Assembly: GCF_021353295.2 (NCBI RefSeq) | Contig: NZ_CP120635.1 | Coordinates: 1,939,501 to 2,003,500, forward strand | Length of the DNA: 64,000 nucleotides | Direction of reading: 5' to 3' | Source of the DNA: Pseudodesulfovibrio thermohalotolerans | GTDB taxonomy: Bacteria > Desulfobacterota > Desulfovibrionia > Desulfovibrionales > Desulfovibrionaceae | In this document: positions 1,677 through 17,472 of the stretch, piece after piece | Position numbering within the stretch: position 1 is the stretch's first letter | How the letters are laid out: every line of letters starts with the position of its first letter | Notes under the pieces: generated by a model | Told to the model about the DNA's origin: nothing | What the model saw: the letters and a program-made list of their open reading frames with translations, nothing else | The model's database searches: none | Program-made: the position numbers and the translations under genes

Positions 1677-1836
1677 CAGGAAGAAATAGAGGAGTGGAAA
1701 TGATGATCGGCGGCCGAAGAATGCCGATTCCGAAAGTGCAAGGAACACGTCTTATCTGACATTCCCTCAGACAGAAACGCCGTAAACCCGCGTCCCTGGC
1801 GGTCTCTTTTCCGGGTCGCTCCGGTGTTATCCGACA

Positions 1837-2349: not shown

Positions 2350-2434
2350 AACAGAGATTCTTGTGTCCCCATCTCGGGGTTCGGGGCGGGAGGCGGATTT
2401 CGCCCCATATCGCGTCCTCGCGGACCGCCCCCTG

Positions 2435-2466
2435 GTTACCTACCGGAGGCCGCTTCAACGTGTCGG
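2435..2466 (-). promoter_or_regulatory. Element-specific promoter/operator motif, copy 1
   Basis: On the + strand it reads GTTACCTACCGGAG, 13 bases, then GTCGG; on the - strand CCGAC-N13-CTCCGGTAGGTAAC. It lies upstream of the leftward gene 1837-2349 and overlaps the 3' end of the gene before it. Three other copies with the same 13-base gap precede other leftward units of the element. Confidence 0.6.
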
Positions 2467-2705
2467 TTTTCGATCTCCTTCCGGTGTGCAGCGAGGATCT
2501 GATTGACCCGTCGTGTGGTGACTCCGGCCAGCTGGGCTATCTCCTTGGTGTTGACGCCCTGTTCATGCAGGGCAATGACGAGTTGGCGACGTTCCTGGTA
2601 GAAGCGGCTTGGGCAGGGAATCCAGAGCACACCGGTATGATATTTCTGGACCTTCTTGAGCAGTTCCTTGGGCAGGATCTTTCCCGCGTTGGCGTATCTC
2701 TTCAT
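2436..2705 (-). CDS. Small HTH protein, CD3324/Mor-like activator family
   Basis: An 89-aa protein starting at ATG 2705, which overlaps the stop of the upstream gene by 4 bp. RYANAGKILPKELLKKVQKY followed by a G-x-L-W-I-P segment is the hallmark start of CD3324-type/Mor-like proteins. The C-terminal half is a helix-turn-helix (NTKEIAQLAGVTTRRVNQIL). Mor-like proteins activate phage middle promoters, so this is a candidate regulator of the element. It is translationally coupled to the unknown gene at 2702-3451. Confidence 0.7.
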   Translation of the reverse strand: MKRYANAGKILPKELLKKVQKYHTGVLWIPCPSRFYQERRQLVIALHEQGVNTKEIAQLAGVTTRRVNQILAAHRKEIENRHVEAASGR

Positions 2706-3451
2706 TTGTCGGTCTCCACCTTCTTGAGCCATGGCTGCGGGACGTCCGGGTTGTAGAACCGCAGGGTGCTGGGCCGCTGTGTTCCCGCGCCATGGATGAT
2801 TTCAATGAATCGGTCCGTAACCGCTCCGATTTCCCGGTCTCCGTCGACAAAGCAGACCAGTCCGTAATCCTGGCCGCAGGGAAATCGAAACCGGCCCTGG
2901 TTCTGGTACAGCCGGGCCTCACGCCATCCCTTGGCCATGGCCTCCTCGCGGATGGCGTCCACTTTGGCAACGGCCCGGGAAGTCACCGGCTGCTTACACT
3001 TCCAGGCTTCTTCCGCGGGATAAATCCAGTCCTTTTTCTGATGCTTGGCGGGCGCTTCATACGTTTTCGGATTCAGGCTGCGAACAGACTTCTGCAGGGC
3101 CTTGTCGCCGAGCTCCTGAATCGCCAGTTCTTGTACGCGGTTGAACCGTTCCCGCAGGAGGTTCCAGGTTCTGTCTGGCAGTTTCCCGGCCTGATGGGCG
3201 TTGCGGGCCGCGACCATCCTGGAACGAAGCCAAGCGAAGTATTCGGGATCGAGCTGGCGGAATACTTTCCCGTCGTATTCAATGTCGCGATCCTTGGCTT
3301 CCACCTGGTCGAATTTCCGGAACTCCAGGTCGGTCGCCACGAAAAGGATGCGGGTAGGAACGGGAACTTCTTTGGTTTGCTCGACGGGATTCTGGACGGG
3401 CAACTCATCCTCTTTGCCGAGGTGAGTCATCATCGTTCGTAACAGGCTCAT
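2702..3451 (-). CDS. Hypothetical protein of the mobile element
   Basis: A 249-aa soluble protein that I do not recognise. ATG 3451 is chosen because GAGAGG stands about 7 bases upstream, two codons inside a longer GTG-started frame. It is rich in Lys, Arg and Trp (WREARLYQNQGRFRFPCGQ, FYNPDVPQPWLKK), has two Cys and no membrane segment. It forms a two-gene unit with the HTH protein 2436-2705 (4-bp overlap). The conserved element motif lies 39 bp upstream (3490-3521), with the iteron-rich putative origin just behind it. Confidence 0.7.
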   Translation of the reverse strand: MSLLRTMMTHLGKEDELPVQNPVEQTKEVPVPTRILFVATDLEFRKFDQVEAKDRDIEYDGKVFRQLDPEYFAWLRSRMVAARNAHQAGKLPDRTWNLLRERFNRVQELAIQELGDKALQKSVRSLNPKTYEAPAKHQKKDWIYPAEEAWKCKQPVTSRAVAKVDAIREEAMAKGWREARLYQNQGRFRFPCGQDYGLVCFVDGDREIGAVTDRFIEIIHGAGTQRPSTLRFYNPDVPQPWLKKVETDK

Positions 3452-3489
3452 ACGCACCTCTCCGGAAGTTGGGATTTACCGTTCTTCCC

Positions 3490-3521
3490 GTTACCTACCG
3501 GAGAGCCTGCCTGAACGTCGG
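3490..3521 (-). promoter_or_regulatory. Element-specific promoter/operator motif, copy 2
   Basis: The + strand reads GTTACCTACCGGAG, 13 bases, GTCGG, with all fixed positions matching copy 1. It sits 39 bp upstream of the leftward unit 3451-2436, the closest spacing to a start codon among the four copies. Confidence 0.6.
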
Positions 3522-3523
3522 GC

Positions 3524-3860
3524 TGCCGAATGTGCCGAAAGGTCTTTCGGCGCTCCGAGACTTTCGGCACCACCTTTCGGCGCAGCAGGCAGCCTTTTAT
3601 CTCCTTTTATTACAATAAGTTATAGATAGATGTAGATAGATATGCCGAAAGCGCCGAAAGGTTACGGGTATGTTTCCACGTGTGGAGCCATTTTTTCCTA
3701 CACAGCGCGTTCGAACCTGATGAGTGAAAAAAAATATCAAATATGGGGTGAGACCTCTGAAACCTTTCGGCACTTTCGGCGCTTGGCCTTAAATCCAGTA
3801 TTGACAAGCAGTTACAGCGCCGAAAGTACTTTCATGCCGCCGAAAGGTAGCTTTCGGCAA
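3524..3860. other. Putative replication origin with eleven GCCGAAAG iterons
   Basis: Eleven perfect octamers GCCGAAAG (either strand) fall within about 325 bp: forward at 3534, 3644, 3653, 3819 and 3839; reverse (CTTTCGGC) at 3544, 3561, 3574, 3764, 3773 and 3851. Some form inverted pairs (3534-3551, 3839-3858) and two form tandem pairs with a 9-bp period (3644/3653 and 3764/3773). An AT-rich stretch (about 3595-3643, containing TAGATAGATGTAGATAGAT) lies between the clusters. The block sits directly downstream of the primase-helicase gene, an arrangement typical of plasmid and phage origins. Origin function is inferred. Confidence 0.65.
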
Positions 3861-3876
3861 AGACTACATCGGGCAC

Positions 3877-3908
3877 AAAAAAAGCCCGAAGGCGTGAGCC
3901 AACGGGCC
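3877..3908 (-). terminator. Rho-independent terminator of the replication operon
   Basis: On the - strand a GC-rich hairpin (GCCCG...CGGGC arms) is followed by seven T. It lies just after the primase stop codon at 3930. Confidence 0.8.
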
Positions 3909-3929
3909 TGATATGAGCTGATTGTTGTT

Positions 3930-6900
3930 TCAGTCCGCTTGTATCGTGTAGAGCTTCGTGCCGTTCCTGTTTTTCGTGATGTGGACTTCGAATCCCGCCT
4001 CGCGCAAGGTCTCCAGGTCGTTTGCGAATCGCTGGGCGAACTGCCGGGATGAATCCATGTCGAACCGCAGGCCAAAATCGCGAGCGATGCGTTTCAGCGC
4101 CACGAAGAGGTCGCGGGAAAGGACGTTCTCGAGCCTTCCCTCATCGCTGAAGATGACCTGGTAACGCTGGACGAATTCCTGCACGTGATTTTCTTTCCTG
4201 TCGCTGTATGCCAGGTCCCGGTCCGCCTCGACGGCGTTGCGCCATGCCTTGAACAGCGTGGCCAGAGCCGTGGCGGTGTGATTTGAATCCCGGGCCGTTT
4301 CCCGGCTGGTCCGGTTTATGGCTTCTATCTGTTCGGTGAAGGACGGGACCAGGCGTTTCATCCCCGCCTCGATCTCTTCGGTGGGCGACCCGGCCAGGAG
4401 CATGAGATACATCAGGCTCAGGTACTCGTTGCACCGGCGCTTGTCGTGATTCCCAAGGGTCTCGTGCAGCAGTTTCATCGTCCGCGTCCGCAAACCGGCG
4501 CGCATCATGGCCAGGACTTCCCTGGTTCTCTTCATGATGGCCGAGATGATCAGGTCCCGGTGTTTCTGGATTGCGGCGATGATTTCGGACTCGATAAAGC
4601 AGTCGTTCCCCTGGTTGGCGATATCGAAGTTGATGACAAAGGTCCGAGACTGGATTTCCGAGAGTTCTCCCAAAAGAGGTTCAATGCCGGTGGTGTTGAG
4701 CAGGCATTTCGTGCGCTCGGTGACGGTCTCGCTGTCGGTGCCGCTCTTGCGCTTCTCCTTGGCGATGCCGGTGATACTGGTCAACATGAAGGTCGTCAGT
4801 TCTTCGGTCATCTGGCGGGCTTCGATATTGTCCAGCACGATGAGCGGATTCTGCGAGCCATCGGTGTAGTTGGCCGCGTCGGTGGCCTTCTTGTGCTGCG
4901 GCTCCCCGTAAAGCAGGGCCGAAATCAGCTTGCTGGCCGTGGTCTTGCCCGAGCCGGCCGGACCTTCGAAGCGGGTCATGGGGCGTGTCCCGGTGAAATC
5001 GAGCAGCAGGAAACAGGAAAGCCAGGAGAGGATGAGAAAGCGGTCGCCCTTGGGGCAGGTGATGTTGCCGACCAGCAGTTCCACCAGCTTGCGGTCGGCT
5101 TCCTCCGGATCGGCGTCGTCCAGGTACTTGATCGGCTTCATTTTCCGCGAGCCGTCGAGGATAATGCCGTCGGGGTTGCCGCCGTTTTTCATGATCTCGA
5201 TAGCGTCCGGTGTGATCTTGGCTATCTCGTGCTCGGCGTTGTTGAGGTTGAAATAGACCGTGTAGTTCGAGACATCGGTGTGGAGCCAGGAGAAGTGATC
5301 CCGCACCTGTCCGCGGATGATGGCCAGGCTCGGCAGCACCTCGAAAAACGTCCGGCCGCCGCCCGATGTCGGCACCAGCCCGGTGTGTTTATAGAGCATG
5401 GCCGCGTACTGGCGCTTGCGGCCTCGGTCCGGGGAGTCCATCCAGTAGATGGCGTTGTCAAAATACATGAACGGTTCGCCCTGCCGGGTGTGAAAGAACT
5501 GAGCGCCGTTGGCGGTGAACCAGTCATAGGCGGCCTCGGCGGCCTGGGTGTAGTCCGGAGCACCGTTTTCCAGCTCGGTGTCTATGAGGATTTCCTCAAT
5601 CCTGGCGCGGCAGGAACCGGATGGTGCGTTCGACCGCCGTTTCTCCCGCTTTTTCTCCTGTTTGGCCTGGGCGCGTTGGTCTTTCTGGATCGCCCGGACC
5701 TGGTCGCGTAGGGTGGCGAGGGACAGACCGGATTTGCCGAAGTGTTCCTGTATGAGTTTCAAGTGCCGGGTCTGCTCCAGGGGCGACAGTTGCGCCACCT
5801 CGCGCAGCACCGGTTCCAGTAAGCGGTTCCTCTCTTCCTCGGACACGTCCGCGGGCAGCCGCGAGATCCCGAACTCAAGCGGCATCTTCGCCTCGGCGAT
5901 GAGGCCTTCGAAATCCTCAGCGGTGTGCCCGGCGGCGAAGTAGTCGTTGACATCGATCTTGGCCGCGGCCAGAAGTTCTTCCGCTTCCCTGACTTCTTTT
6001 TCCGGTCGTCCGGTAAAACGCTGGGTGAGCTCCCGCGGACCCACCGCCGCGTCCAGGCCGAAGCGCTCCTTGAGCTCCTTGCGGGCGTTTTCCCGACGCT
6101 CGTCGAGGGGAAGGACCACCAGCCTGGTTTGAATCTTGTGTCCGGCGAGGACGGACGCGGTTTTGAGCGCACCGTGCAGTCCGGCTTCGGATATCTCGTT
6201 GTCCTGGCAGATATAGACGGTCTTGACGCTGCGCAGGCGAGGCAGCAGCCGTTCCCAGTCGGCCTCCCGGATATGGACCGTGACCGGCGACACCGCTGCA
6301 AACCCGTGTTCCATCAGAGAGATGCAATCGGTGACGCCTTCGGTGATGATCAACCGCTCCGGGTTGGCGAGCAGACAATCCTCGTTGAAGAGATACCCGT
6401 TGTTGACACAGGGGGCGATGTGTTTTTTGAAAGCGTCGTTATGGACCGGGAGCTTCTTGTACTTGCTATGCTCCCAGTTGGTATCGGGCGTCCACGGCGT
6501 TTTGCGTCCGATCATGAAGACCACGCGGCCGCGGCTCCAGTAAGGGAAAACGATCCGTCCTTTAAAGAAAGGGATAAGGCCGTCCTGGCCGGTCGGGACA
6601 AACGCTCCCGTGGCGGCGAGCTCTCGCAGACTGAAGCCGTGTTCCTTGCCGGTCAGCGTGGCGATGACGCCTTGACGATTTTCCGCGCCGGGACCATTGT
6701 CCGCGTAACCGATCAGCAGTTCCTCGATGGTCTCGTCTTTGATCCCGTACTTGGAGCGAAGCCACTGAAGCGCCTCCGGTGATTCCTTGAGGCGGCGGTG
6801 ATAGAATTTTGCTGTCTCGGTCAAGACCGCTTGAACGCGGAGTTCCAACATCCGCGCCGATTCGGCCTCGGCCATTTGCTCCGGCGACAACCCGTAGCTG

Positions 6901-7250
6901 GACAACGGGGGAAGCCCGGCCTTGGCGGCCAGGAAATCACGAGCCTGCTGGTGGCTCTCCGGCATGGGGCCGGACTGGCCCCGCGTTACGACTCCGAAAC
7001 GGACGAACTCCACCAACTGCAGCACATCGCCGCCCACGCCGCACCCGAAGCAGTACCATCCCTGCTTGTCCAGCATGACATGCAGCGACCGGTGGGATTG
7101 GCTCTTGTGGTTGGGGCAATCGCACTGAAGAAGGCGGGGGGACTCCTGCACGATCCTGCCGGCCAGAAGTTCTCTCGCCACGAGGCCGATGTCGACCTCG
7201 GTAACCAGGCGATAATACTCCTTAACGTTGTTCGGCTGTTCCGATGCCAT
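3930..7250 (-). CDS. Primase-helicase (CHC2 zinc finger, TOPRIM, P-loop ATPase)
   Basis: A protein of about 1,106 aa, or 1,115 aa if the GTG at 7277 is used. ATG 7250 is preferred because GGGAGCGG precedes it, whereas the GTG has no visible ribosome site. Counting from the GTG: a CHC2-type zinc finger (C52/C54, H57, C76, C79); a TOPRIM-like region (LIITEGVTDCISL near 310, ICQDNE near 355); a basic coiled region; and a C-terminal ATPase with Walker A GPAGSGKTT near 770 and Walker B-like LIVLDN near 810. It should prime and unwind DNA for the element's replication, acting at the neighbouring iterons as P4 alpha does. It is the last gene of the leftward operon. Confidence 0.88.
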   Translation of the reverse strand: MASEQPNNVKEYYRLVTEVDIGLVARELLAGRIVQESPRLLQCDCPNHKSQSHRSLHVMLDKQGWYCFGCGVGGDVLQLVEFVRFGVVTRGQSGPMPESHQQARDFLAAKAGLPPLSSYGLSPEQMAEAESARMLELRVQAVLTETAKFYHRRLKESPEALQWLRSKYGIKDETIEELLIGYADNGPGAENRQGVIATLTGKEHGFSLRELAATGAFVPTGQDGLIPFFKGRIVFPYWSRGRVVFMIGRKTPWTPDTNWEHSKYKKLPVHNDAFKKHIAPCVNNGYLFNEDCLLANPERLIITEGVTDCISLMEHGFAAVSPVTVHIREADWERLLPRLRSVKTVYICQDNEISEAGLHGALKTASVLAGHKIQTRLVVLPLDERRENARKELKERFGLDAAVGPRELTQRFTGRPEKEVREAEELLAAAKIDVNDYFAAGHTAEDFEGLIAEAKMPLEFGISRLPADVSEEERNRLLEPVLREVAQLSPLEQTRHLKLIQEHFGKSGLSLATLRDQVRAIQKDQRAQAKQEKKREKRRSNAPSGSCRARIEEILIDTELENGAPDYTQAAEAAYDWFTANGAQFFHTRQGEPFMYFDNAIYWMDSPDRGRKRQYAAMLYKHTGLVPTSGGGRTFFEVLPSLAIIRGQVRDHFSWLHTDVSNYTVYFNLNNAEHEIAKITPDAIEIMKNGGNPDGIILDGSRKMKPIKYLDDADPEEADRKLVELLVGNITCPKGDRFLILSWLSCFLLLDFTGTRPMTRFEGPAGSGKTTASKLISALLYGEPQHKKATDAANYTDGSQNPLIVLDNIEARQMTEELTTFMLTSITGIAKEKRKSGTDSETVTERTKCLLNTTGIEPLLGELSEIQSRTFVINFDIANQGNDCFIESEIIAAIQKHRDLIISAIMKRTREVLAMMRAGLRTRTMKLLHETLGNHDKRRCNEYLSLMYLMLLAGSPTEEIEAGMKRLVPSFTEQIEAINRTSRETARDSNHTATALATLFKAWRNAVEADRDLAYSDRKENHVQEFVQRYQVIFSDEGRLENVLSRDLFVALKRIARDFGLRFDMDSSRQFAQRFANDLETLREAGFEVHITKNRNGTKLYTIQAD

Positions 7251-7279
7251 GCCGGTTCCGCTCCCATTGATATCCACGC

Positions 7280-9511
7280 CTACAACTCGACCGAATTCGC
7301 CGAAGCGCGTGACGGTTCCACGGGAGGATGGGCAAGAAGCAACGAGAGAAATGTCTTTCTTTCATCCTGCCGGCGCTTTCGGGCGCAGTTCTGCATTCCC
7401 CAGCGATCCCCGATGATGACCGCCGTTTTCCTGGCCCTGGTCACACCGGTGTACAGGAGGTTGCGGTGATGCATGAACGAGTGGGCCTTGTGGACCACCA
7501 CTATGGCGCACGGAAACTCAGATCCCTGGGCCTTGTGTATCGTGAGCGCGTAAGCCAACTGCAGGTCCTGCAAATTCGGTGAGCCCGATTCAATATCTAC
7601 CGGCACTCCGTCGAATTCGATGGTCATCGATCCATCCCGGCCTATGTGCGTCACCTTGCCCATCGCGCCGTTCATCACGCCGAGTTCATAATTGTTGCGG
7701 GTCTGAATGACCTTGTCGTGGACGAGGAACTTCGGTCTGCGTCCCGGCTTCGGAACCGGTGCCTCGACGCCCCACAGCTTCTTCTGGATCAGCCTCTGAA
7801 GCTCGGCGTTGAGCGCCCTGGTGCCGAGTGGGCCCTTGTGCGTCGGTGTCAGGACCTGGACGTCGTCCCGGAGGTGAAATCTCAGCCGCTCATCGAGCAC
7901 GTTCTCGAACAGTTCGAGCAGGAATCTTTGCGCGTCGGATTGGTCGGTGAATTGATCGACCACATACCACGCCCGGCGACCGGAATCTTCCGGGTCACTG
8001 GTCTTGCGGATCTCGCCGCCCAGCACGGCTATGCTGTTTTCCTTGAGCACGCCCGCCTGACGAACGACCGTGTCCAACAGCACCATGGGGACGGCCCGTG
8101 ACTGTGTGAGGTCGCGAAGCAGGCTCCCGGGCCCCACCGGGGGCAGCTGGTTATGGTCCCCCACGAGAACCACCGCGGTACGCTCCAGGTCGATGGTCCT
8201 GAACAGGTGCCAGGCCAGCGGAATGTCGACCATCGACACTTCGTCGATGATGATGACATCGGCATCGATGGGATCTTCCGGGCCCCGCACATAGTTCTTG
8301 CCGTTGAAACCCAGGAGACGGTGAATGGTGCTCGCGGAATGCCCGACGACTTGCTCGAGCCGCTTGGCGGCCTTTCCGGTCGGCGCGGCCAAGACCACTC
8401 GCAGGTCGTGTTCCTCGAATATGTCCGTGACGGCTGAAACGGTGAAGGTCTTGCCGCTGCCCGCGCCGCCCGAAATGAGCGAGATGGAATTCTTCAGGAC
8501 GGTCAGAACGGCGGCCCGTTGCCCCTCGTTTAGCTGCGGCGCGACGTGTGAGATCAGCGTTTGCAGGTCGTCCTCACCGTCGAAGTGGGGATTCGCCCGC
8601 TTTCCGTTTGCGAGAGTCGCCGCCAGGTCCTCTTCCATTCGGCGAATCTCGGGTTTCGCCACAAGGAACCGTCCGCCCCAGGATGTACACGAGAGCGAGC
8701 CATCCTCTATAAGGGCGTCCAGCGACTTTTCGATCCGCTCACGGCTGTCGAGAACATCCATGACAAGCAACGTGTTGGCCCGGTCCACCAACTCCTCGTA
8801 CTCGACCCAGCAGTCGCCGTCATTGAGAGACTCCTCCACGCAATGGAGCAACCCGGCCCGGATGCGCGTACCGTGCTCCTTGGGCGTGCCCATCTTTCGG
8901 GCGATCTTGTCCACCCGTTTGAATCCGAAGCCGCGCACCTCCCGGACGATGATGTACGGGTCGGCTTTGAGCAGGCCGAGGACGTTGTTGCCGAGTTTCT
9001 TGACGAGGCTTGTCACCTGGTGGTGGGTCAGACCGAAAGCGGCCAGCCAGGTGATCGCCCTGTTGACCTCCCTGGTCTTCCGCCACTCGTCACGCAGCCT
9101 TTCGACCGCCGCCAGCGGAAGTCTCGCCGCTTCGGATACGGTTTCCGGTTGTTCAATGAGCACCCGGTCGAAATCCCCTCCGAAGCGTTCGGCGATGAGT
9201 CGCGCCTTGACCGGCCCGATGCCCTTGATCTCCGGATGATTGGCCAAGTAGTGGGCGAGTCCTTCCGTATCCAGCTCGAGGTCGTATTCCATGGCTTCGA
9301 CATCAAACTGGCGTCCGTACTTGGGGTGTGTGATCCAGCGGCCGCGGAGGACGACCTGCTCGTGCTCACGCACAAACAGCCGGCCCGCGAATTGGATCTT
9401 TTCGCCGGAGGGCGTTACCAGCCTGCCCGCGGAAAAGCGCGGACCGGCATAGAACACCGCTTCGACGCGACCGCGGACAGTTACTGGAGCTTGGGTTGTT
9501 TTTCTTCGCAT
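7280..9511 (-). CDS. RecD2-like ATP-dependent DNA helicase
   Basis: 743 aa from ATG 9511 (a longer frame to 9586 overlaps the upstream gene). An N-terminal OB-like region is followed by a helix-hairpin-helix segment (IKGIGPVKARLIAERFG), the RecD2 middle region, and an SF1 helicase core with Walker A SGGAGSGKT (about residue 347), Walker B IIIDEVSMV (about 420), and late motifs YALTIHKAQGSEFP and LLYTGVTRAR. RecD2-type enzymes unwind DNA 5' to 3' and need no RecBC. It lies between a nuclease gene and the primase-helicase, so replication or recombination of the element is its likely job. Confidence 0.9.
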   Translation of the reverse strand: MRRKTTQAPVTVRGRVEAVFYAGPRFSAGRLVTPSGEKIQFAGRLFVREHEQVVLRGRWITHPKYGRQFDVEAMEYDLELDTEGLAHYLANHPEIKGIGPVKARLIAERFGGDFDRVLIEQPETVSEAARLPLAAVERLRDEWRKTREVNRAITWLAAFGLTHHQVTSLVKKLGNNVLGLLKADPYIIVREVRGFGFKRVDKIARKMGTPKEHGTRIRAGLLHCVEESLNDGDCWVEYEELVDRANTLLVMDVLDSRERIEKSLDALIEDGSLSCTSWGGRFLVAKPEIRRMEEDLAATLANGKRANPHFDGEDDLQTLISHVAPQLNEGQRAAVLTVLKNSISLISGGAGSGKTFTVSAVTDIFEEHDLRVVLAAPTGKAAKRLEQVVGHSASTIHRLLGFNGKNYVRGPEDPIDADVIIIDEVSMVDIPLAWHLFRTIDLERTAVVLVGDHNQLPPVGPGSLLRDLTQSRAVPMVLLDTVVRQAGVLKENSIAVLGGEIRKTSDPEDSGRRAWYVVDQFTDQSDAQRFLLELFENVLDERLRFHLRDDVQVLTPTHKGPLGTRALNAELQRLIQKKLWGVEAPVPKPGRRPKFLVHDKVIQTRNNYELGVMNGAMGKVTHIGRDGSMTIEFDGVPVDIESGSPNLQDLQLAYALTIHKAQGSEFPCAIVVVHKAHSFMHHRNLLYTGVTRARKTAVIIGDRWGMQNCARKRRQDERKTFLSLLLAHPPVEPSRASANSVEL

Positions 9512-9942: not shown

Positions 9943-9943
9943 G

Positions 9944-10432
9944 TTAGAACGGAGCCAGGGCGTCTTTGGCCGCGGTGTCGTACTCGTCGCCGCCGTCTTC
10001 GAGCACAATGCGCTTGTTGAGGTACACGTTTTCGTTTTCGCCCCGCGTGCGTTTGGTGACCTCCAGCTTGATGTTGATCAGCTTCTCGAGGTTGGCCGGA
10101 AGATCCGAGATCTTCTCAAGGCTCAACCCGCATGTGTGCAGGTCGGTCTTGAGCCACTTGATATTCTCTCGGGTGGCCATGACGTTGTTGCGCCAGAGCA
10201 GGCGTCCCCGGAACCGGGGCGCGATGATGCGCAGGGTCCACTTGAGCATCGGATTGCCCGAGGTCTGGGCGCGTGTCAGCTCCACCCGCTCGACGTTGAC
10301 CTGGTACTTGCCGTCGGGGATCGGCTCGAAATCGCGCTCTTCGACTTCCGCTTCGGCGAAATCATCGTCGAACTGCGTGAGATCGATGTCGTCCTGACCG
10401 TAGTCGTAGTTTCCGTAGTTTTCGTTTTCCAT
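9944..10432 (-). CDS. DUF669 family phage protein (ssDNA-binding-like)
   Basis: A 162-aa protein starting at ATG 10432, with GGAGG 9 bases upstream. The N-terminus is very acidic (DDIDLTQFDDDFAEAEVEERD) and is followed by PIPDGKYQVNVERVELT...NPMLKWTLRII, the usual beginning of DUF669 proteins. These sit beside phage nucleases and recombinases and are thought to act like single-strand-binding proteins. The neighbours, a Sak4-like ATPase and an ERCC4 nuclease, fit that setting. Confidence 0.8.
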   Translation of the reverse strand: MENENYGNYDYGQDDIDLTQFDDDFAEAEVEERDFEPIPDGKYQVNVERVELTRAQTSGNPMLKWTLRIIAPRFRGRLLWRNNVMATRENIKWLKTDLHTCGLSLEKISDLPANLEKLINIKLEVTKRTRGENENVYLNKRIVLEDGGDEYDTAAKDALAPF

Positions 10433-10455
10433 GGTTCTATCCTCCAATCAGGGGT

Positions 10456-11235
10456 TTATTTCCCGGCGGAAGCAGGCACCTTGCTCTGCTTATCCCCGGA
10501 GCCGACTTGAGACCGCGAGGCACTCGCCTTGTGCGCGGTCGCCGGCGCGTTGAACACTTCAATGAACTTGTTGAAATCGAGATCGATGGTCTCGGGAAGG
10601 CGTCCGGTGCGGTCGCCGGCCTCGTAGTTGGGACTCGGTTTCGTCCGCATCACACGGCGGTACGTGGGATTGCCGTCCTCGTCCTTCGTTACCTCGAGGT
10701 CGCAGAAGAGAATGAGATCGACCATGCCGAGCACGATCTTCCGCGCCTTGTCGGGCAGGGTCGGAACGATGCGGGTATGTTTGCCCGTGCGGGTTTCGAT
10801 CTCCTTTTCCTGGGAGTGCGAAACGAGAAAGAGGCCGTAGAACATGAAGGCCAGCTTGGTCAGGACGCGGTGGAATTCGTTGTTGATCAGCGCCCAGCCC
10901 TTGCCGTAACCGAGATCGGATTCATGCTCGATCTTGAATTTCTTGCAGATGTAATCGCTGCACATCCGGTAGGCGTTGTCGACGGTGTCGATGATGATGG
11001 TCTTGAATGGATGCTTGCCTTCGGCGATCTCGCCGCAGGCGGCAAGCAACTCGTCCCAACTGCTCACCGGAACCTGGAAGACATCCAGGGCGTTGAGTCC
11101 GGGTTCGGTCGCCAGGAACAGCGCGCCGTCGGACTTTGAACACCAGGTTGATTTGCCGATCTTGCTGCGGCCATAAACCAGCACCGTGAGATCGGCCAGG
11201 TCTTGTTTGGGTGGGGTTTTCTTCGTCGGTAACAT
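10456..11235 (-). CDS. Sak4-like phage nucleotide-binding protein (RecA-fold ATPase)
   Basis: 259 aa from ATG 11235; an ATG two codons earlier is too close to the GGAG ribosome site. Walker A is GRSKIGKST (residues 22-30) and Walker B is TIIIDTVD around residues 79-85. The family (phage nucleotide-binding proteins, Sak4-type) contains single-domain RecA-like enzymes that promote annealing or strand exchange with an ssDNA-binding partner. The adjacent DUF669 gene could be that partner. The tail is Ser/Ala/Lys-rich. Confidence 0.85.
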   Translation of the reverse strand: MLPTKKTPPKQDLADLTVLVYGRSKIGKSTWCSKSDGALFLATEPGLNALDVFQVPVSSWDELLAACGEIAEGKHPFKTIIIDTVDNAYRMCSDYICKKFKIEHESDLGYGKGWALINNEFHRVLTKLAFMFYGLFLVSHSQEKEIETRTGKHTRIVPTLPDKARKIVLGMVDLILFCDLEVTKDEDGNPTYRRVMRTKPSPNYEAGDRTGRLPETIDLDFNKFIEVFNAPATAHKASASRSQVGSGDKQSKVPASAGK

Positions 11236-11258
11236 GTTCATCTCCTTTTCTTTGGTCC

Positions 11259-12392
11259 TCAGAATGCCGGGGCCTCTTCGATGTGCGAGCCGCACAGGCA
11301 ATCTTGCGGTTCGCCACCGGTCCCGGCTTGCCGTGGCGGATTGTGTCGGCCACAACAGGCGTTTGCGCGGCGAGCACAATTCGCCTGCGGTGGCTCACCG
11401 CCCCCGTCCCGCAGCTCTTCATGCGGGGGGACTTTGTGGTACAGGTTCTCGATGACGTTGGGACTGCCGCCGGAGCGACACAGCGGGAAGTAGGCGCAAG
11501 GCCGGTGGTAGTGGAAACAGAAGGCGGTGTTGCGGTAGAAGACACCGCGCCTCCGCGCGTCCAGGAAAGCCTGGGTCAGTTCCCAGAGCTCCGCCTGCAG
11601 AGCGGCGAACTGGTCGCGGGAGATGTAGAGGGTCTCCCGGTGAAACATGCCGGGCTCGGCATATTTGGCGGCCAGCCGCTCCTGGAACGCTTCATCTGAT
11701 TCAGGGAGTTTGCGCTTGGCCGAACTCTTGCCGGTCTTTGACTTGGCGGCAAGACGCCGGCGGCGTTCCTCGAACTCCGCTTCCGTCTCGCCGCGGCCCT
11801 GCTGAAGTCGGGCTTTGACCAGGATATTGTAAAGAATGCCCGCGATGCGGAGCCCCAGCGTCCGCTCCACATACCAGGCGTAAAGAATGATCTGGAAGTC
11901 GGTCCACAACCGTTCCAGGTAATCGGCGTCGATCTGCGAGGCGGTCTTGTGCTCCAGCAGGAAGAACTCGTCGCCGATCTGGACAATGCCGTCGACTTTC
12001 CCCGCCAGGACGAAGCTCCGGGATGAAGCTCCCGTGGCAGGGTTGACGATCTTTCCCTTAAAGGTCTTCTCCAGCGCGACGACCTCAAACTCCTCGGTGG
12101 GGTAGCGCGCGGCGTAACCCTTCATCATGGCCGTGGCCAGATGCCAATCGCGCAGCTCGCGCTCGTCCTGGGCCTGGTTGGGACACGCCCGGTCGATGTG
12201 GTCCAGTACCCGCTTCAGTTCCCGGTCCCGATGCCAGATCTCCAGGCATTCATGGATCAGGGAGCCGAAGCTGAGATTGTGGTCGCGCTCCAGCGGCACG
12301 AGCTCATGCAGATAGCGCCAATCGCAGGCCTTCCGGCAGTTGCGGAAGAGACTCCACATCGAGTAGGTGGTCAGCATAGGCCCGCTCATCAT
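11259..12392 (-). CDS. RecB/Cas4-like PD-(D/E)XK nuclease with cysteine cluster
   Basis: A 377-aa nuclease. Active-site signature: H47 (SLIHECLE), D134 (GKVDGI), E147 and K149 (LLEHKT). Cysteines C23, C292, C299 and C305 bracket the nuclease domain in the pattern of Fe-S-containing AddB/Cas4 enzymes. The last 50 or so residues (from about 330) are of low-complexity character with extra cysteines and may be a poorly conserved tail. The start overlaps the upstream gene by 4 bp. It probably acts as an exonuclease in the element's recombination module. Confidence 0.85.
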   Translation of the reverse strand: MMSGPMLTTYSMWSLFRNCRKACDWRYLHELVPLERDHNLSFGSLIHECLEIWHRDRELKRVLDHIDRACPNQAQDERELRDWHLATAMMKGYAARYPTEEFEVVALEKTFKGKIVNPATGASSRSFVLAGKVDGIVQIGDEFFLLEHKTASQIDADYLERLWTDFQIILYAWYVERTLGLRIAGILYNILVKARLQQGRGETEAEFEERRRRLAAKSKTGKSSAKRKLPESDEAFQERLAAKYAEPGMFHRETLYISRDQFAALQAELWELTQAFLDARRRGVFYRNTAFCFHYHRPCAYFPLCRSGGSPNVIENLYHKVPPHEELRDGGGEPPQANCARRANACCGRHNPPRQAGTGGEPQDCLCGSHIEEAPAF

Positions 12393-12703
12393 GCCGCCCC
12401 CGTTGCCTGGAGTTTTCTTTCCTGCTCACCACTCTGGCCCAGACGTTCGACCCTGAAGGCCTCCTCGCCGAACTCACGAGTAATGAAGCCGGTGAAGATG
12501 CGGGCGATGTGGCGGCCCACTTCGGTGCCGGCGTCGACAACGCAGGTCCGTTTCTTCTCTTCCAGGCAGAAGGATGCGTCCAGCCGAACAAGGGAGCGCC
12601 CATGCAGACTCTCAGTCGCAAGCACCGCCAGGAGCAGCGACTCCTCCACGTCCCTGAACGGGACTCCGGCGGTGAAGTTGTATCTGTAAATTTCTCGGTT
12701 CAT
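12389..12703 (-). CDS. Hypothetical protein, first gene of the replication/recombination operon
   Basis: A 104-aa protein I do not recognise. It opens MNREIYRYNFTAGVPFRDVEESLLLAVLATESLHGRS, which suggests a small alpha/beta fold, and has two cysteines (C46, C54). The stop overlaps the nuclease start by 4 bp, so it is co-translated with the replication module. A copy of the conserved element motif (12806-12837) lies about 100 bp upstream, making this the likely start of a unit running to 3930. Confidence 0.75.
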   Translation of the reverse strand: MNREIYRYNFTAGVPFRDVEESLLLAVLATESLHGRSLVRLDASFCLEEKKRTCVVDAGTEVGRHIARIFTGFITREFGEEAFRVERLGQSGEQERKLQATGAA

Positions 12704-12805
12704 GACTTTGCCTCCGTTCCCTTCGATTGCTGTTTACAGAAGGGGCGCGCCCGGGTCCGATGCCGGGAAGCCTTGTTGCGCTTCCTCCGGACATCCGACC
12801 CGTTC

Positions 12806-12837
12806 AATACCTACCGGAGCAGGGCGAAGAGCGTCGG
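12806..12837 (-). promoter_or_regulatory. Element-specific promoter/operator motif, copy 3
   Basis: The + strand reads AATACCTACCGGAG, 13 bases, GTCGG, so only two positions of the 14-base block differ from copies 1 and 2. It lies five bases after the stop of the sigma-like gene and upstream of the seven-gene replication/recombination operon. Confidence 0.6.
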
Positions 12838-12841
12838 ACGA

Positions 12842-13429
12842 TTACAGGTAGTCCTTCAGGCCCGCGTCCTCGAAGATGGCGCGAAGCTTCTTGATGGACT
12901 CGTAGATCGTGCCCCGCGGGATGCCCGTGTCGCGGGAGATCTCCGTGACGCTCTCGGTTTGGAGCCGCTTGCACAGTTCACGGAGTTCGGGCGGCAGCGT
13001 CTGAACGGCGCTTCGGAGATCAATGGACAGATGCCGCAACTCGGACATGGGGCGGGAGAGCTTGCCGGTGCGTCGCAGGTAGTCTTCCTGGTCGATGGTC
13101 TCCATCCGCTCTATGGACCTGCCTTCTTCGTCCTCCAGGCGGTCGTTCAAAGAGCAGGAGCAGAGACGGTAATCCCGCATCCCGGCTTTCTGTGCCTCGA
13201 TGATCGTGGCGACCTTGTGCTCGACAATCCGAGCGATGAACGTGTTGCGCCCGGCGCGTTTCGGATCGAACTTCGGCAGGCGGCGGAGCAGGTCGAGCAC
13301 CATTTCCTGCTCCAGATCTTCGCGGTCGGACTCGGTAAACCCGACCCGTCCGACCAGTTGCCTTGCCTTGTACTTGATGAGCTGAACTGCATAGTCGTCG
13401 ATTCCCTGATAGCGATTTTCGTAACCCAT
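12842..13429 (-). CDS. Sigma-70-family (ECF-like) sigma factor or sigma-like HTH protein
   Basis: A 195-aa protein with AGGAGG 5 bases before ATG 13429. Region 2 is visible at about residues 33-80 (REDLEQEMVLDLLRRL, KFDPKRAG, TFIARIVEHKVATII). A region-4-like HTH lies near the C-terminus (LPPELRELCKRL, EISRDTGIPRGTIYESIKKL). There is no region 1 or 3, so it resembles ECF sigmas. It lies directly before the replication operon, and the conserved motif 12806-12837 stands between them. I infer that it may direct transcription of the element from the repeated motif. Confidence 0.72.
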   Translation of the reverse strand: MGYENRYQGIDDYAVQLIKYKARQLVGRVGFTESDREDLEQEMVLDLLRRLPKFDPKRAGRNTFIARIVEHKVATIIEAQKAGMRDYRLCSCSLNDRLEDEEGRSIERMETIDQEDYLRRTGKLSRPMSELRHLSIDLRSAVQTLPPELRELCKRLQTESVTEISRDTGIPRGTIYESIKKLRAIFEDAGLKDYL

Positions 13430-13461
13430 TTGAGCCTCCTCGAGGCCGAGGAGGAGCTCGT

Positions 13462-13612
13462 GTGGGTGCCGACATTCGCCGGGACGGCCGCGTTACCTGT
13501 GCCTTGCGGAGGAGCTGCGAGTTCGCCGGTTCTGGCGACACCCACAACGACCTCCGCTCTGCGGCCAGTCTGTTGTCTGGTGACCTTGTTTTGTGGCTCG
13601 GGACTTTACACC
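13462..13612 (-). promoter_or_regulatory. Structured leader-like element, copy A
   Basis: This untranslated stretch upstream of the sigma-like gene shares ordered blocks with 17202-17320: GTGTGG-TGCCG, CGCCGG-AC, then CACCCACAAC, GCTCTGC and GTTGTCTGGT. Within it TGTGGGTG (13461-13468) can pair with CACCCACA (about 13530-13537). A short hairpin (TCGGG/CCCGA arms) follows and reaches the 3' end of the next upstream gene. Two copies in front of different leftward genes suggest a conserved RNA structure or a regulatory DNA site; which of the two is unknown. Confidence 0.45.
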
Positions 13613-13938
13613 CGAACCGTCTCTTTCAAACTCATGCGGAAGGGGAGCCCGTGCTTGATTTCCAGGCTCAGCACCGTTCCGTTCCCCAGGCGGTCGAGCT
13701 GCGCGAAAAGCTCAACGGCCTGGGACTTCAAGGCGAAGTCTTCGACCGTCATCTCTCGCCTCGGGCCGTTTTCTCCGCCGAACTTGATTTCACGAACCAC
13801 TTGCGGGGGCGGATCGAAGTCCGGTTCGCCGTCGCGCACGGCCAGTTCCTCGATCCGCCCGAAGTTGATCCCCTGCATCAGTTCAAGCAGGCGTCTCCGT
13901 TGGGGAGACAGCGACGCCTTCGTTGCCACGTTGTTCAT
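13606..13938 (-). CDS. Hypothetical protein, possible regulator
   Basis: A 110-aa protein from ATG 13938 with AAAGGAGG upstream. The sequence LSPQRRRLLELMQGINFGRIEELAVRDGEPDFDPPPQVVREIKFGGENG is typical of small conserved proteins of phage-type elements in Desulfovibrio relatives and Geobacter, but I cannot name its function. It has no cysteines or membrane segment. Unusually, a perfect 12-bp-stem terminator with six T lies only about 30 bases before its ribosome site (13970-14016), so expression may depend on read-through. Confidence 0.65.
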   Translation of the reverse strand: MNNVATKASLSPQRRRLLELMQGINFGRIEELAVRDGEPDFDPPPQVVREIKFGGENGPRREMTVEDFALKSQAVELFAQLDRLGNGTVLSLEIKHGLPFRMSLKETVRV

Positions 13939-13969
13939 TCCGAACCTCCTTTCGCGCCTCGCGGCGCAC

Positions 13970-14016
13970 AAAAAAGCCCCTGGGAGGCAGGTCCGGCGAA
14001 GGGTCCTCCCAGGGGC
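13970..14016 (-). terminator. Strong terminator/attenuator in the leader of gene 13606-13938
   Basis: The arms GCCCCTGGGAGG (14016-14005 on the - strand) and CCTCCCAGGGGC form a perfect 12-bp stem, with a T run after it on the - strand. It is placed immediately upstream of a start codon, not after a gene; the previous leftward gene already has its own terminator at 14304-14330. This arrangement fits attenuation. Confidence 0.75.
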
Positions 14017-14303
14017 ACTCGCCCGGTTTCCCGGACGATGTTCTTACGGGGTGAAGGTCTCGCCGAACCTGTCACCCTTCTTTGGCGAAATTTCGTTCGA
14101 GGCTCGGATTGGTGTGGCCTGAAGAATGGAGCGGAAGGAGAAATGCTTGAAAAAGCGGTGGATTGGCGGAATCAGAGAGGAGAAATTTTTCTTAACTTTT
14201 TTTGCCGCCCCTCAGTGAAATTTCGCTGACCTCACCGATTACCGGACAATTCGGCAGGACAGCCGAAGGGTGCGAGCCAGGGACGGCGAGCATCAAACGG
14301 GCA

Positions 14304-14330
14304 TAAAAAAAGCCGCCCGCGAAGGTCGGC
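14304..14330 (-). terminator. Terminator after the serine-recombinase operon
   Basis: On the - strand a hairpin with a TTCG-containing loop (GCCGACC...GGGCGGC) is followed by seven T. It lies about 30 bases after the stop of the ParB/KorB-like gene. Confidence 0.75.
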
Positions 14331-14361
14331 CCCTGTGTCGGCTGCGGTATGTGGTTTACGT

Positions 14362-14784
14362 TCAGTCGGTGGTGAACCCGAACATGGCCCGCTGCTCCTC
14401 CCAGTCCACCGGGAAGGTTCTGGTCAGCTTGGCCAGCGACAGGCCGGCCGGCTGCTCGCCGTTCAGGATCGCTTCGATGATGTCGGGGGCGAGCGTGGTC
14501 AATTTCAGAATGCGGGCCACGTAGGAGTTGTCCACATCCAGGTTCGTCGCAAGTTCACTGATGGACTTGACCTCTCCGCTCTCGATCACCTCCGCCCAGG
14601 AGAACGCCCGGGCCAGTGCCTGCACGATGGCGGTCTGCACCGTTCCCGGGCTGTCGGAAACATCTCCGTCAAGCGCCTTGGGAACGATGATGACCTTCCG
14701 GCCGCGCATCCGGCGGATCAACATCGGAATATGGATATGCAGATTGCCCGTCTCGGTAACAGTGATGGTGGGTTGCTTGCTCAT
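14362..14784 (-). CDS. ParB/KorB-like HTH protein
   Basis: A 140-aa protein overlapping the recombinase stop by 4 bp. The segment ISELATNLDVDNSYVARILKLTTLAPDIIEAILNG is a helix-turn-helix of the ParB/KorB/RepB kind. The N-terminal 50 residues (MSKQPTITVTETGNLHIHIPMLIRRMRGRK) contain a basic beta-rich segment. Proteins of this kind regularly follow large serine recombinases with a zinc ribbon and may assist or regulate recombination. A specific function is not established here. Confidence 0.75.
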   Translation of the reverse strand: MSKQPTITVTETGNLHIHIPMLIRRMRGRKVIIVPKALDGDVSDSPGTVQTAIVQALARAFSWAEVIESGEVKSISELATNLDVDNSYVARILKLTTLAPDIIEAILNGEQPAGLSLAKLTRTFPVDWEEQRAMFGFTTD

Positions 14785-16367
14785 TTACCATTCCTCCGTT
14801 CCCTGACTTCACACGCCAGTCCGGTCAGCTCGGTGATGAGGGTGGTCAAGCCGTTGGTTTTGAGCTCCATATCGATGCCGGTTTCCCTGATTTCCACTTT
14901 CTCGACCAGCAGTCGCACAAGCCGGTTACGTTCCAGGGGAAACAGGTCTTCCCAGAAGGTTTCGATGCTCTCGAAGGCTTCCGATACATCCCGTTCGGTC
15001 ACATGATTACCCTCGAACACCCGCAGCCTGGCCGACACGTTTGCCAGATGTCGGGTCAGGGTCACCGCGCGCTGGTTGACCTTTGCCAGTTTTTCTTCCC
15101 GGTCAGGCTCGTTGTTGCCGGGTGACATCAGTTCAAGCGCCCGCTTGCGGACCGCAGCGAGGTTTTCTTCAAGTTGCTCTTTCTGTTTCACTAATCTTTC
15201 CCGCTCCGCTTCTTCCATCTCCTTGGCCGCGAAGTAGGTTTTTGCCACCAGCGTCGGGGTTCGGAATACAGCGCCCAGCTGTTCCAGCACAGCCTTCTCG
15301 ATGTCTCCGGCCGGGACCCGCTTCAGCGGACATCGGCTGACAGCCCGCTTGGCATCCTTCTCACAGATGTAATAGGTATAGCGCCGCTCACCCTTTTGGG
15401 TGTAGGTGGGGCCCATCGAACAGTCACAATGGCCACAGCGAATCACCCCCTGCAGGGGGGAGATCATCTTGGTCTTTGCTTTGCTGAGCTTGGCCCTGGT
15501 GTTTTCCGAAAGAATCGACTGGACTTTCTCCCACAACTCCTTGTCGACGATGGCCTGGTGCTCTCCGGGATAGCTTTCACCCTTGTGGACCACCTCGCCG
15601 ATGTATATGCGGTTGCCCAGCAAGCGGTAAATGTGGCCGGTGTTCCATTCGGTCCCTTCCCGATGTTTCCCTTTCTTCGTGACCCACGACTTGGTTTTGT
15701 ATCCCTGCTCATTGAGTTCCCGCGCCAGCTTTCTGGCCGATGCCAGTTGCGTGAATCGCCGGAAGATGTGTTGCACCAGCGGCGCTTCATCCGGATTGAC
15801 CAGCAGTTTCTTGTTCTCCCGGTCGACATCGTATCCGAGTATGGCCGGGCCGCCGCAGTATTTGCCCCGCCGTTTCGCCGCTGCCACCTTGTCCCGGATT
15901 CGTTCGGCGATGACCTCCCGCTCGTATTGCGCGAAGGTTATCAGGATGCCGAGAAACATCCGGCCGGTCGGGTCGGTGGTGTTGAAATGTTCGGTAACCG
16001 AGACGAAATTGACACCCTTCTTATTGAACAACTCTATCATGTTCATGAAGTCGAGCAACGAACGTGAAAGGCGGTCGATCTTGTAAACCACGATCACATC
16101 CACTTTCCCCGCGTCCACGTCGGCCAAAAGACGCAGCAAGGCCGGACGCTCCATGTTGCCGCCCGAGAATCCACCGTCGTCGTAGCGGTCGACCAGGGCC
16201 CGCCAGCCCAGCATTCGTTGGCTTTCGATATACGACTCGGCAGCCTCCCGCTGGGCATCCAGCGAGTTGAATTCCTGTTCCAATCCTTCCTCGTGACTTT
16301 TCCGGGTATAGATGGCACAGCGCAGCGGCTTCTTCCTGGTGGAGGTCATGTTGACGTTATCAGGCAT
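14781..16367 (-). CDS. Large serine recombinase with zinc ribbon
   Basis: A 528-aa site-specific recombinase. ATG 16367 is chosen for GGAGG 8 bases upstream. The N-terminal resolvase domain has catalytic S24 (YTRKSHEEG) and the conserved VVYKIDRLSRSL segment. A recombinase domain follows, then a zinc ribbon at about 305-345 (RCGHCDCS ... YYICEK ... RCPLKRV) and a C-terminal coiled coil (EERLVKQKEQLEENLAAVRKR). Large serine recombinases integrate and excise phages and elements using attP/attB. This gives the element a second, unrelated recombinase. Its start overlaps the DUF2924 stop by 8 bp. Confidence 0.93.
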   Translation of the reverse strand: MPDNVNMTSTRKKPLRCAIYTRKSHEEGLEQEFNSLDAQREAAESYIESQRMLGWRALVDRYDDGGFSGGNMERPALLRLLADVDAGKVDVIVVYKIDRLSRSLLDFMNMIELFNKKGVNFVSVTEHFNTTDPTGRMFLGILITFAQYEREVIAERIRDKVAAAKRRGKYCGGPAILGYDVDRENKKLLVNPDEAPLVQHIFRRFTQLASARKLARELNEQGYKTKSWVTKKGKHREGTEWNTGHIYRLLGNRIYIGEVVHKGESYPGEHQAIVDKELWEKVQSILSENTRAKLSKAKTKMISPLQGVIRCGHCDCSMGPTYTQKGERRYTYYICEKDAKRAVSRCPLKRVPAGDIEKAVLEQLGAVFRTPTLVAKTYFAAKEMEEAERERLVKQKEQLEENLAAVRKRALELMSPGNNEPDREEKLAKVNQRAVTLTRHLANVSARLRVFEGNHVTERDVSEAFESIETFWEDLFPLERNRLVRLLVEKVEIRETGIDMELKTNGLTTLITELTGLACEVRERRNGK

Positions 16368-16884
16368 TCTTGCCACCTCCGTTCTTTTTTCCGTAGGTCT
16401 TCTTCAGGCCGAAAAAGACCTTGCCGTTCCAACGGGTGCCGGTAATTTCCCGAGCCACCGCGCTGAGTGATCGAAAGATCCGGCCGTCGTATTCAAAGCC
16501 TTTTTCCCGGGCGACGACCTCATATCGACGGTCATTCCAGACCCTCACGAACCTTGTACCCGGCAGGATGTTTTCATTGGACTTGCGCTCCTCGGGCACC
16601 TTGCGCTCGACCGTCGCCACGGGATCATCCTGGGCGATTTGCCGTAGACGCGTCTTGGCGCTCTCGGACAGGCCACCGTAAAAGAGCTCCTGAATACGAT
16701 AGGCGAGGCGTTTGACGAGGAACTGTTTCTTGTACCGGGGCGGGTCGCTGCCATAAAGGTCGAGCCACTTCTCGCGAAGTTGCTCCAGCGTCATATTCTG
16801 TAACGTCGCCAGTTGCCGCAGGACGGAATTCCGGGTCCGTCCGCCGTTCTTCCCGTTGCGGGTTTGTTTTTGTAACTCATTCAT
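16360..16884 (-). CDS. DUF2924 family protein
   Basis: A 174-aa basic protein; ATG 16884 has GGAG 6 bases upstream. The features NMTLEQLREKWLDLYGSDPPRYKKQFLVKRLAYRIQEL and a late FEYDGRIFRSLSAVAREITGTRWNG segment define DUF2924. These proteins almost always sit directly upstream of a large serine recombinase, as here (8-bp overlap), and are presumed accessory DNA-binding factors. The late segment resembles a small DNA-binding domain found in several phage proteins. Confidence 0.88.
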   Translation of the reverse strand: MNELQKQTRNGKNGGRTRNSVLRQLATLQNMTLEQLREKWLDLYGSDPPRYKKQFLVKRLAYRIQELFYGGLSESAKTRLRQIAQDDPVATVERKVPEERKSNENILPGTRFVRVWNDRRYEVVAREKGFEYDGRIFRSLSAVAREITGTRWNGKVFFGLKKTYGKKNGGGKNA

Positions 16885-16947
16885 ACACAACTCCTTATCA
16901 TGCGTTCCGGACGCGTTTGTCATGAATGAATGCTTAAGTTCCTGCAA

Positions 16948-17169
16948 CTAATCAAGTCCTTCTCCGGCAGTTCCGGAAGATTCTTCGATATCCTCCATAC
17001 GCCAGCTGGAAGCGGCTTTGCGGACTTTCGAACGCAGCACAGCAACCGCCAGGATCGAGGCGATTGCCCCCAGTCTCTTTTCCGGGGAAAGGAGTTCGGA
17101 CTCGGGAAATACATCCGCTTCAAGCGGGTCGGGATCGGTTGTTTCAAGAGCAAAATCGGCATCCAACAT
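16948..17169 (-). CDS. Small acidic-start hypothetical protein of the serine-recombinase operon
   Basis: A 73-aa protein. The first 30 residues are acidic (MLDADFALETTDPDPLEAD) and are followed by a hydrophobic/basic helix (LGAIASILAVAVLRSKVRKA). I do not recognise it. It is 63 bp upstream of the DUF2924 gene in the same direction and probably opens that operon. The structured leader copy B and motif copy 4 lie upstream of it. Confidence 0.6.
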   Translation of the reverse strand: MLDADFALETTDPDPLEADVFPESELLSPEKRLGAIASILAVAVLRSKVRKAASSWRMEDIEESSGTAGEGLD

Positions 17170-17201
17170 CGTGACCTCCGGCTTGCGTGACCGGGTCGGT
17201 C

Positions 17202-17332
17202 GGTGTGGATGCCGGGAAACTCGCCGGACGGTTGGGATGCGGGTTCACTGGCACCCACAACCGCCTAAGCTCTGCTTCCGGTCAGTTGTCTGGTTTCTAA
17301 CTCTCAAGTCCGGGCGAAATGCCCGGCCCTGT
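17202..17332 (-). promoter_or_regulatory. Structured leader-like element, copy B
   Basis: This shares the block order of copy A (13462-13612). GTGGATGCC can pair with GGCACCCAC with one mismatch. The block around CACCCACAAC...GCTCTGC...GTTGTCTGGT is nearly identical between the copies. A perfect CCGGGC/GCCCGG hairpin with a 5-base loop follows at about 17310-17326. It lies in the leader of the serine-recombinase operon. Confidence 0.45.
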
Positions 17333-17337
17333 CGATG

Positions 17338-17369
17338 GTTACATACCGAAGGCGTTCCCCGACTGTCGG
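17338..17369 (-). promoter_or_regulatory. Element-specific promoter/operator motif, copy 4
   Basis: The + strand reads GTTACATACCGAAG, 13 bases, GTCGG (two changes in the 14-base block, invariant spacing). It lies 169 bp upstream of the leftward 73-aa gene and just before the rightward lexA-like promoter. Confidence 0.5.
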
Positions 17370-17391
17370 AAGGGTTTTTCCATAAGACTTC

Positions 17392-17420
17392 TTGACCTGA
17401 CGGATATCAGGTCGTATATT
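17392..17420 (+). promoter_or_regulatory. lexA-like gene promoter with embedded palindromic operator
   Basis: A -35 TTGACC (17392-17397) and a -10 TATATT (17415-17420) are separated by exactly 17 bases. A perfect inverted repeat ACCTGA-N6-TCAGGT (17395-17412) spans the spacer. A repressor bound there would block RNA polymerase, so this is the likely self-operator of the LexA-like protein encoded 50-60 bp downstream. Confidence 0.75.
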
Positions 17421-17472
17421 ATAGTTTTATTCGGCCCGATGGGGCTTTTCGTTTTTGGTAAATGTGGGAGCC

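Follow-up and report, generated by a model that had tools for sequence, protein, structure and literature searches.

Repeated bipartite sites in a Pseudodesulfovibrio prophage as probable promoters of a phage-encoded ECF-type sigma factor

To our knowledge, promoters have been mapped for few phage sigma factors, and least of all for those of temperate phages. In Bacillus prophages, sigma-like factors such as Xpf of PBSX are positive control factors, Xpf acting at a late promoter. A survey reports phage sigma factors in 13.4% of 4,350 phage genomes (PMC9429907). Phages phiEco32 and 7-11 are described as having their own sigma factor and few, well conserved promoters ahead of gene clusters (PMC4331800). 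For bacterial sigma factors of the extracytoplasmic function (ECF) type, the account of Mycobacterium tuberculosis sigma H places the -35 element at -34 to -29 and describes little tolerance of changes in spacing (PMC6411747). Here, we describe a stretch of 64,000 nucleotides of Pseudodesulfovibrio thermohalotolerans (the window; positions 1,939,501-2,003,500 of contig NZ_CP120635.1) in which a prophage carries several copies of a bipartite site and a gene for an ECF-type sigma factor (12842-13429, minus strand; all coordinates are window positions unless given in Mb). Judged from the sequence, these sites are probably promoters of this sigma factor, with transcription predicted to start at a purine run 36-38 bases past the first C of the site.

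On the coding strand, the site has the form CCGAC-N14-TCCGGTARGTAAC, and its spacer is constant in length. The first-pass annotation had listed four copies with a 13-base gap between the blocks as quoted there, and all four were recovered on the minus strand with a gap of exactly 13. The quoted sequence itself is exact in two of them, at 3490-3521 (site 3, predicted +1 at about 3485) and 2435-2466 (site 4, predicted +1 at about 2430), but has two mismatches each at 17338-17369 (site 1, GTTACATACCGAAG..., predicted +1 at about 17333) and 12806-12837 (site 2, AATACC..., predicted +1 at about 12801). A weaker fifth copy, suspected at 14234-14265, is absent from the matches of either pattern (three and two mismatches allowed). 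In 100 shuffles of the window, the expectation for chance matches with up to three mismatches was 0.00 and the largest count 0.

Each of the four sites precedes genes of the prophage. Site 1 is a candidate promoter of an operon with a DUF2924 gene and a large serine recombinase (14781-16376, minus strand). Site 2 lies 4 bp past the stop codon of the sigma gene, ahead of recombination and replication genes. Site 3 precedes gene 2702-3457, and site 4 a terminase-small-subunit-like gene at 1837-2349. The window holds only the right part of this prophage, prophage A, which has five further sites to the left of the window and thus nine in total (1.910-1.957 Mb); other sites of prophage A precede the genes for a portal protein, a DNA methyltransferase, a protein that matches no PHROG, a tail protein and a baseplate wedge protein. 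In the whole genome, 18 sites with up to two mismatches were found, all of them inside prophage A and a related prophage B (nine sites, 2.865-2.914 Mb). Allowing three mismatches added four genome positions, scattered outside the prophages.

The gene at 12842-13429, previously called sigma-like, could be identified as an ECF-type sigma factor of 195 amino acids by both family match and fold. The protein reaches 45.6 bits against sigma70-ECF TIGR02937 (curated cut-off 42.9) and matches phrog_1740. Sigma region 2 is present (PF04542, 25.4 bits, cut-off 24), as is region 4, expected of an ECF member, while the sigma1.1 and sigma3 domains are absent. The predicted model consists of two helical domains and a low-confidence linker (pLDDT 75, replacing an earlier poor model with pLDDT 67); its top Foldseek match is an ECF sigma factor, with whole-chain superpositions that are loose (root-mean-square deviation above 10). 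The GGAAC-type -35 element that is usual for ECF factors, although not strictly defining, is replaced by CCGAC. A sigma-28 (FliA/WhiG) identity was also considered, as CCGA-N15-TCCGGTAA resembles the sigma-28 layout, and was rejected on the score of the protein (16.8 bits against a FliA_WhiG cut-off of 189.6). No anti-sigma gene was recognised among the neighbour genes scanned. Directly ahead of the sigma gene, and beside it in many relatives, lies a gene for an uncharacterised small protein (13606-13971, minus strand).

Relatives of the sigma protein were found at 10 viral loci (on nine contigs) and 19 genome loci. The record titles of the latter name many phyla, including Desulfosarcina, Acidobacteriota and Planctomycetes bins; because most are metagenome bins, these host labels may be wrong. 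A search of related elements for the motif, as proposed in the first-pass annotation, showed that the same bipartite site recurs ahead of integration, recombination, packaging, head and tail genes. It starts 4-8 bp past the sigma stop codon in all 10 viral loci (with four mismatches in L028) and in 12 of the 19 genome loci. Among the remaining seven, the sequence of L052 stops at the sigma gene, the matches of L053 and L057 cover the sigma factor only in part, and in L042 (10585-13089) about 2.5 kb separates the sigma gene from its usual following site; the other three are discussed below. Over 581,715 bases and with 0-2 mismatches, 60 matches had a spacer of 14, none a spacer of 13, and 22 a spacer of 17 or 18. 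With up to three mismatches, the second block of a spacer-14 site was reused in 17 of 17 matches at spacer 17 and in 28 of 29 at spacer 18, so that these are shifted readings.

To describe the site beyond its two blocks, 102 distinct sites were selected with at most one mismatch over 14 positions, which are therefore conserved by choice. Outside these positions, information was found in Y-T before CCGG, in purines 36-38 bases past the first C, and in R-N-(T/A)-T-C after CCGAC. The region between the blocks, described earlier as varying, is thus constrained in part. Conservation stops about 7 bases beyond the second block. For the start base, 37 sites were counted in eight stretches, one per lineage (A, G009, G002, G047, G014, G028, G012, G034; B, G005, G013 and G026 excluded). 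Purines occupy +36, +37 and +38 in 34, 31 and 34 of these sites, compared to 14 at +35 and 27 at +33; in all 12 stretches the values are 60/66 at +36 and 24/66 at +35. A pyrimidine-purine step follows the site where the predicted transcript start falls. Counted from the purine run, CCGAC would lie at about -36 to -32 and the second block at about -17 to -5.

The same features bear on whether the motif could be an element of the leader RNA, such as an antiterminator, a processing signal or a translation signal. It does precede genes along the direction of transcription, as such an element would. However, a pair of short blocks whose distance is fixed and whose intervening bases are poorly conserved, together with the loss of conservation just beyond the predicted start, fits DNA better, and the structured RNA that exists nearby is distinct from the motif. 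We regard an RNA-level element as very improbable.

A codirectional start with a ribosome-site word and an open reading frame (ORF) of at least 50 amino acids lies within 230 bp of 53 out of 55 sites, compared to 28/55 on the opposite strand and 1035/2000 at random positions. In prophage B the recombinase operon is reversed, and its motif site is reversed along with it. This touches on a further explanation, in which the sites serve packaging, recombination or the exchange of modules, as their position at the borders of functional modules might indicate. Against this, the longer contigs of relatives hold 7-10 sites each (up to three mismatches), and the sites point the same way as the gene that follows, also at the inverted operon of prophage B; such a role is very improbable. 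Overall, the reading of the minus strand as a -35/-10-like promoter, made already at first sight, agrees with the fixed spacer, the codirectionality and the predicted start-site purines at a fitting distance.

In the sigma-promoter reading, CCGAC(RNWTC) would be the -35 element, at about -36 to -27, and TCCGGTARGTAAC an extended -10 element, at about -17 to -5. The sigma factor would bind host core RNA polymerase and read the sites. Inactivation of the neighbouring LexA in the SOS response would free the first operon and, by some route, the sigma factor, which would then turn on the phage modules, including the site 1 operon.

The co-occurrence of site and sigma gene was surveyed in 297 genomes of the class, calling the sigma factor at E up to 1e-10. 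Some match at 0-1 mismatch occurs in 35 of them and two or more exact sites in 15, of which 14 have the sigma factor, the exception (G251) being a fragmented assembly. Two genomes (G162, G305) have one exact site each and no sigma factor was found in them. In total, 17 class genomes have the sigma factor. Three of them (G044, G047, G133) lack exact sites, and the second block of their sites is altered to (G/C)CCGGTAYGTA. Motif variants are clear for two diverged groups of the sigma factor. The group with 60-61% sigma identity has (G/C)CCGGTAYGTAT (8 distinct sites); G014, with 35% sigma identity, has (c)CCGGTAGGTAGa (4 sites). The remaining sigma groups have the common TCCGGTARGTAA. What the sequence itself shows is the sites, their spacing, direction and conservation, the family and fold of the protein, and the motif variants in these two groups.

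A different reader of the sites must be weighed here. The first-pass annotation had proposed a regulon under one of the element's own proteins, either the sigma factor or a Mor-like activator. The ORF in question (2436-2732, minus strand) does encode a small helix-turn-helix protein, but its Pfam Mor score is only 17.4 bits, below the cut-off of 24.9. The sites might then bind a separate phage activator or repressor, this Mor-like protein or the 13606 protein, by analogy to the control of the middle promoter of Mu or to mycobacteriophage stoperators. The comparison was carried out on 37 records: 33 motif-picked ones, out of at least 80 loci from at least 120 motif-bearing stretches, and 4 sigma-relative records from viral loci. 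The Mor-like protein was found at 53-70% identity in 17 of the 37 and in 15 of the 33 motif-picked contigs, and is thus as frequent as the sigma factor (14 of 33). In addition, the 3' end of its gene overlaps motif site 4, and the 13606 protein adjoins the sigma factor in many relatives. However, tblastn, which could miss remote versions of either protein, did not find the Mor-like protein in seven stretches with sigma factor and sites that extend at least 15 kb past the sigma gene (G002, G012, G014, G026, G047, G133, G087 contig 10), nor the 13606 protein in G012 and G034, where the place ahead of the sigma gene is covered. Neither was found in G031. A Mor-family activator, which would mark a Mor/C-controlled regulon, is thus no constant companion of the sites in the stretches searched. 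The site is also asymmetric: its blocks are laid out like -35 and -10 elements, and a purine run resembling a transcription start follows. Altogether, a regulon of the element is supported with the sigma factor as its reader, the Mor-like protein is less likely to fill this role, and a separate regulator of either kind is an unlikely explanation.

Several observations weigh against the sites being promoters of the sigma factor. One concerns G031 (L324, 408-1306), where an exact site precedes recombination genes, but the adjacent upstream position is held by a divergent lexA-like gene instead of a sigma gene; its 22-kb contig yielded no sigma factor, Mor-like protein or 13606 protein. Either its sigma factor is in an unseen part of the genome or the site works without it, and our confidence was lowered for this reason. 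A profile search still left 19 of the 33 motif-picked contigs without a sigma factor. In six of these (G008, G013, G023, G030, G033, G035) the Mor-like gene is so near the contig end that the contig does not reach the place where the sigma gene usually lies (in G003, about 10 kb upstream); nine others (G006, G007, G010, G016, G017, G021, G025, G032, G037) show only late genes or a nearby contig end. In these 15 of 19, the contig apparently ends before the usual position of the sigma gene. Three more (G004, G018, G022) have a single site and no clear relation. The site after the sigma gene is absent in the Magnetococcales loci L054-L056 (36-39% sigma identity), where a de novo motif search returned no motif that exceeded shuffles, apart from tandem repeats unrelated to the site. 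In the group with 60-61% sigma identity just 3-4 sites per genome were found, many of the 102 distinct sites are orthologous, and the co-occurrence of site and sigma factor is partly linkage. The gene pair 13606/12842 has no site directly ahead, and a terminator lies between the pair and site 1. The -35 block lacks the GGAAY that M. tuberculosis sigma H is described as reading (PMC6411747). Finally, a sigma-70 promoter scan of 1500-18200 gave no leftward hits and two overlapping hits on the other strand, both for lexA; as 4.0 were expected by chance over both strands, the missing leftward sigma-70-like promoters are weak evidence only.

The first operon of the prophage adjoins a LexA repressor gene (17485-18096, plus strand; TIGR00498, 176.9 bits, cut-off 110.95). 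Its predicted sigma-70-like promoter, TTGACC-17-TATATT (17392-17420, plus strand), contains the candidate LexA-type operator GACCTGAcggataTCAGGTC (17393-17414), 23 bp from motif site 1. As a bare pattern this palindrome is not above chance in the window; of 13 relatives inspected by eye, 8 have a similar palindrome, with matched half-site changes, ahead of their first site, and 5 do not. Prophage B (2.909-2.917 Mb; L037, L038) has the lexA/recombinase block in the opposite orientation to A; additional genes are inserted there, and the lexA-like ORF is short. The terminator mentioned above is a strong predicted intrinsic one (13970-14016, minus strand), with a 12-pair stem followed by U6 (z -3.19), between the recombinase operon and the gene before the sigma gene.

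Upstream of the sigma gene, a 71-base stretch (13514-13584, minus strand) folds as two adjacent hairpins with paired changes. A covariance model, R1, was built from 16 sigma leaders, including this one (92.2 bits), and a copy outside the training set was detected downstream of motif site 1 (17236-17297, minus strand; 48.2 bits, E 3.1e-08). The model found the element in 22 sigma-bearing stretches, 18 of which have a second copy (E up to 0.01) that follows a motif site directly; in L043 the second copy is at E 0.066, and G002, G014 and G026 have none at 0.01. The element also occurs in L052, with a second copy, and in L022 and L024, without. Across 36 distinct rows, 11 of 21 pairs changed on both sides, compared to a shuffle mean of 5.0 (0/500 reach 11), in an alignment that leans towards R1 because it was fitted to the model. 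Pair types on A3 showed no excess over shuffles (438/500 reach the value), and Rfam gave no match above cut-off for the leader RNA, with one chance-level hit elsewhere. A pseudoknot (ACAAC/GTTGT) was considered as a candidate only.

Closer to the sigma gene, a hairpin (13435-13456, minus strand) is predicted to pair with its Shine-Dalgarno sequence GAGGAGG. This masking hairpin is in or near register in most of 19 sigma leaders, and L186 retains it with bases changed on both sides (by eye). An alternative long-range pairing, GCGGAGG/CCTCCGC, holds in 10 of the 19. In prophage B the two leader RNA copies sit on different operons, so that simple serial antitermination does not fit all members. 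We tentatively propose, with less confidence than for the promoters, that a widespread temperate phage family may run its whole programme from one ECF sigma factor gated post-transcriptionally, the leader RNA and the masking hairpin forming an RNA switch or antiterminator that couples excision to sigma synthesis.

Three further features of the window should be added. A 29-base repeat, ACATGCCAATATCTGCTTGGCTTATG, occurs in four to five copies at 1429-1648, between a tyrosine-recombinase-like ORF and the terminase-like gene, and may serve in packaging or binding. At 3524-3859, next to a primase-helicase gene, GCCGAAAG/CTTTCGGC repeats in direct and inverted orientation are densely packed and resemble an origin array. 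To the right of the prophage genes, a transfer-messenger RNA gene (20743-21127, minus strand) marks a possible integration neighbourhood.

In this prophage, the sequence alone reveals the promoter with its spacing and probable start base, and the natural sigma-motif variants suit a test of specificity. The sigma factor and its sites offer a pair for orthogonal gene control, and the leader RNA is a candidate new regulator. The system also gives access to prophage induction in bacteria that have been little studied, sulfate reducers among them. No title in the searched literature, whose coverage leaves out most subscription papers, describes the motif or the leader RNA. The genome-wide use in a temperate phage, the motif itself and the RNA look new.

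Among known systems, Xpf of PBSX is similar as a sigma-like positive control factor of a prophage. The leader RNA is like the put RNA of HK022, which has two adjacent hairpins and two copies per phage, in leaders; the hairpin layout is alike, whereas sequence and placement differ. In the case of Wolbachia phage WO, a sigma-70 domain protein with about 25% identity, in 7 phage records, was the only homologue found in INPHARED (E up to 1e-3), and in phage WOVitA1 no bipartite site recurred more than in shuffles. Bacterial ECF sigma factors (SigH, SigE, AlgU, RpoE) share the two-domain sigma2-sigma4 protein and, as described for sigma H, rigid promoter spacing (PMC6411747), but here the factor is phage-borne, the -35 is CCGAC and the -10 is long. 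Like phiEco32 and 7-11, the prophage encodes a sigma factor and has conserved promoter-like sites. Phage 7-11 is described as lytic, with predicted middle and late promoters and a TGATGT core motif (PMC4331800), whereas here an integrated prophage with a serine recombinase and LexA carries its sites before early, middle and late modules.

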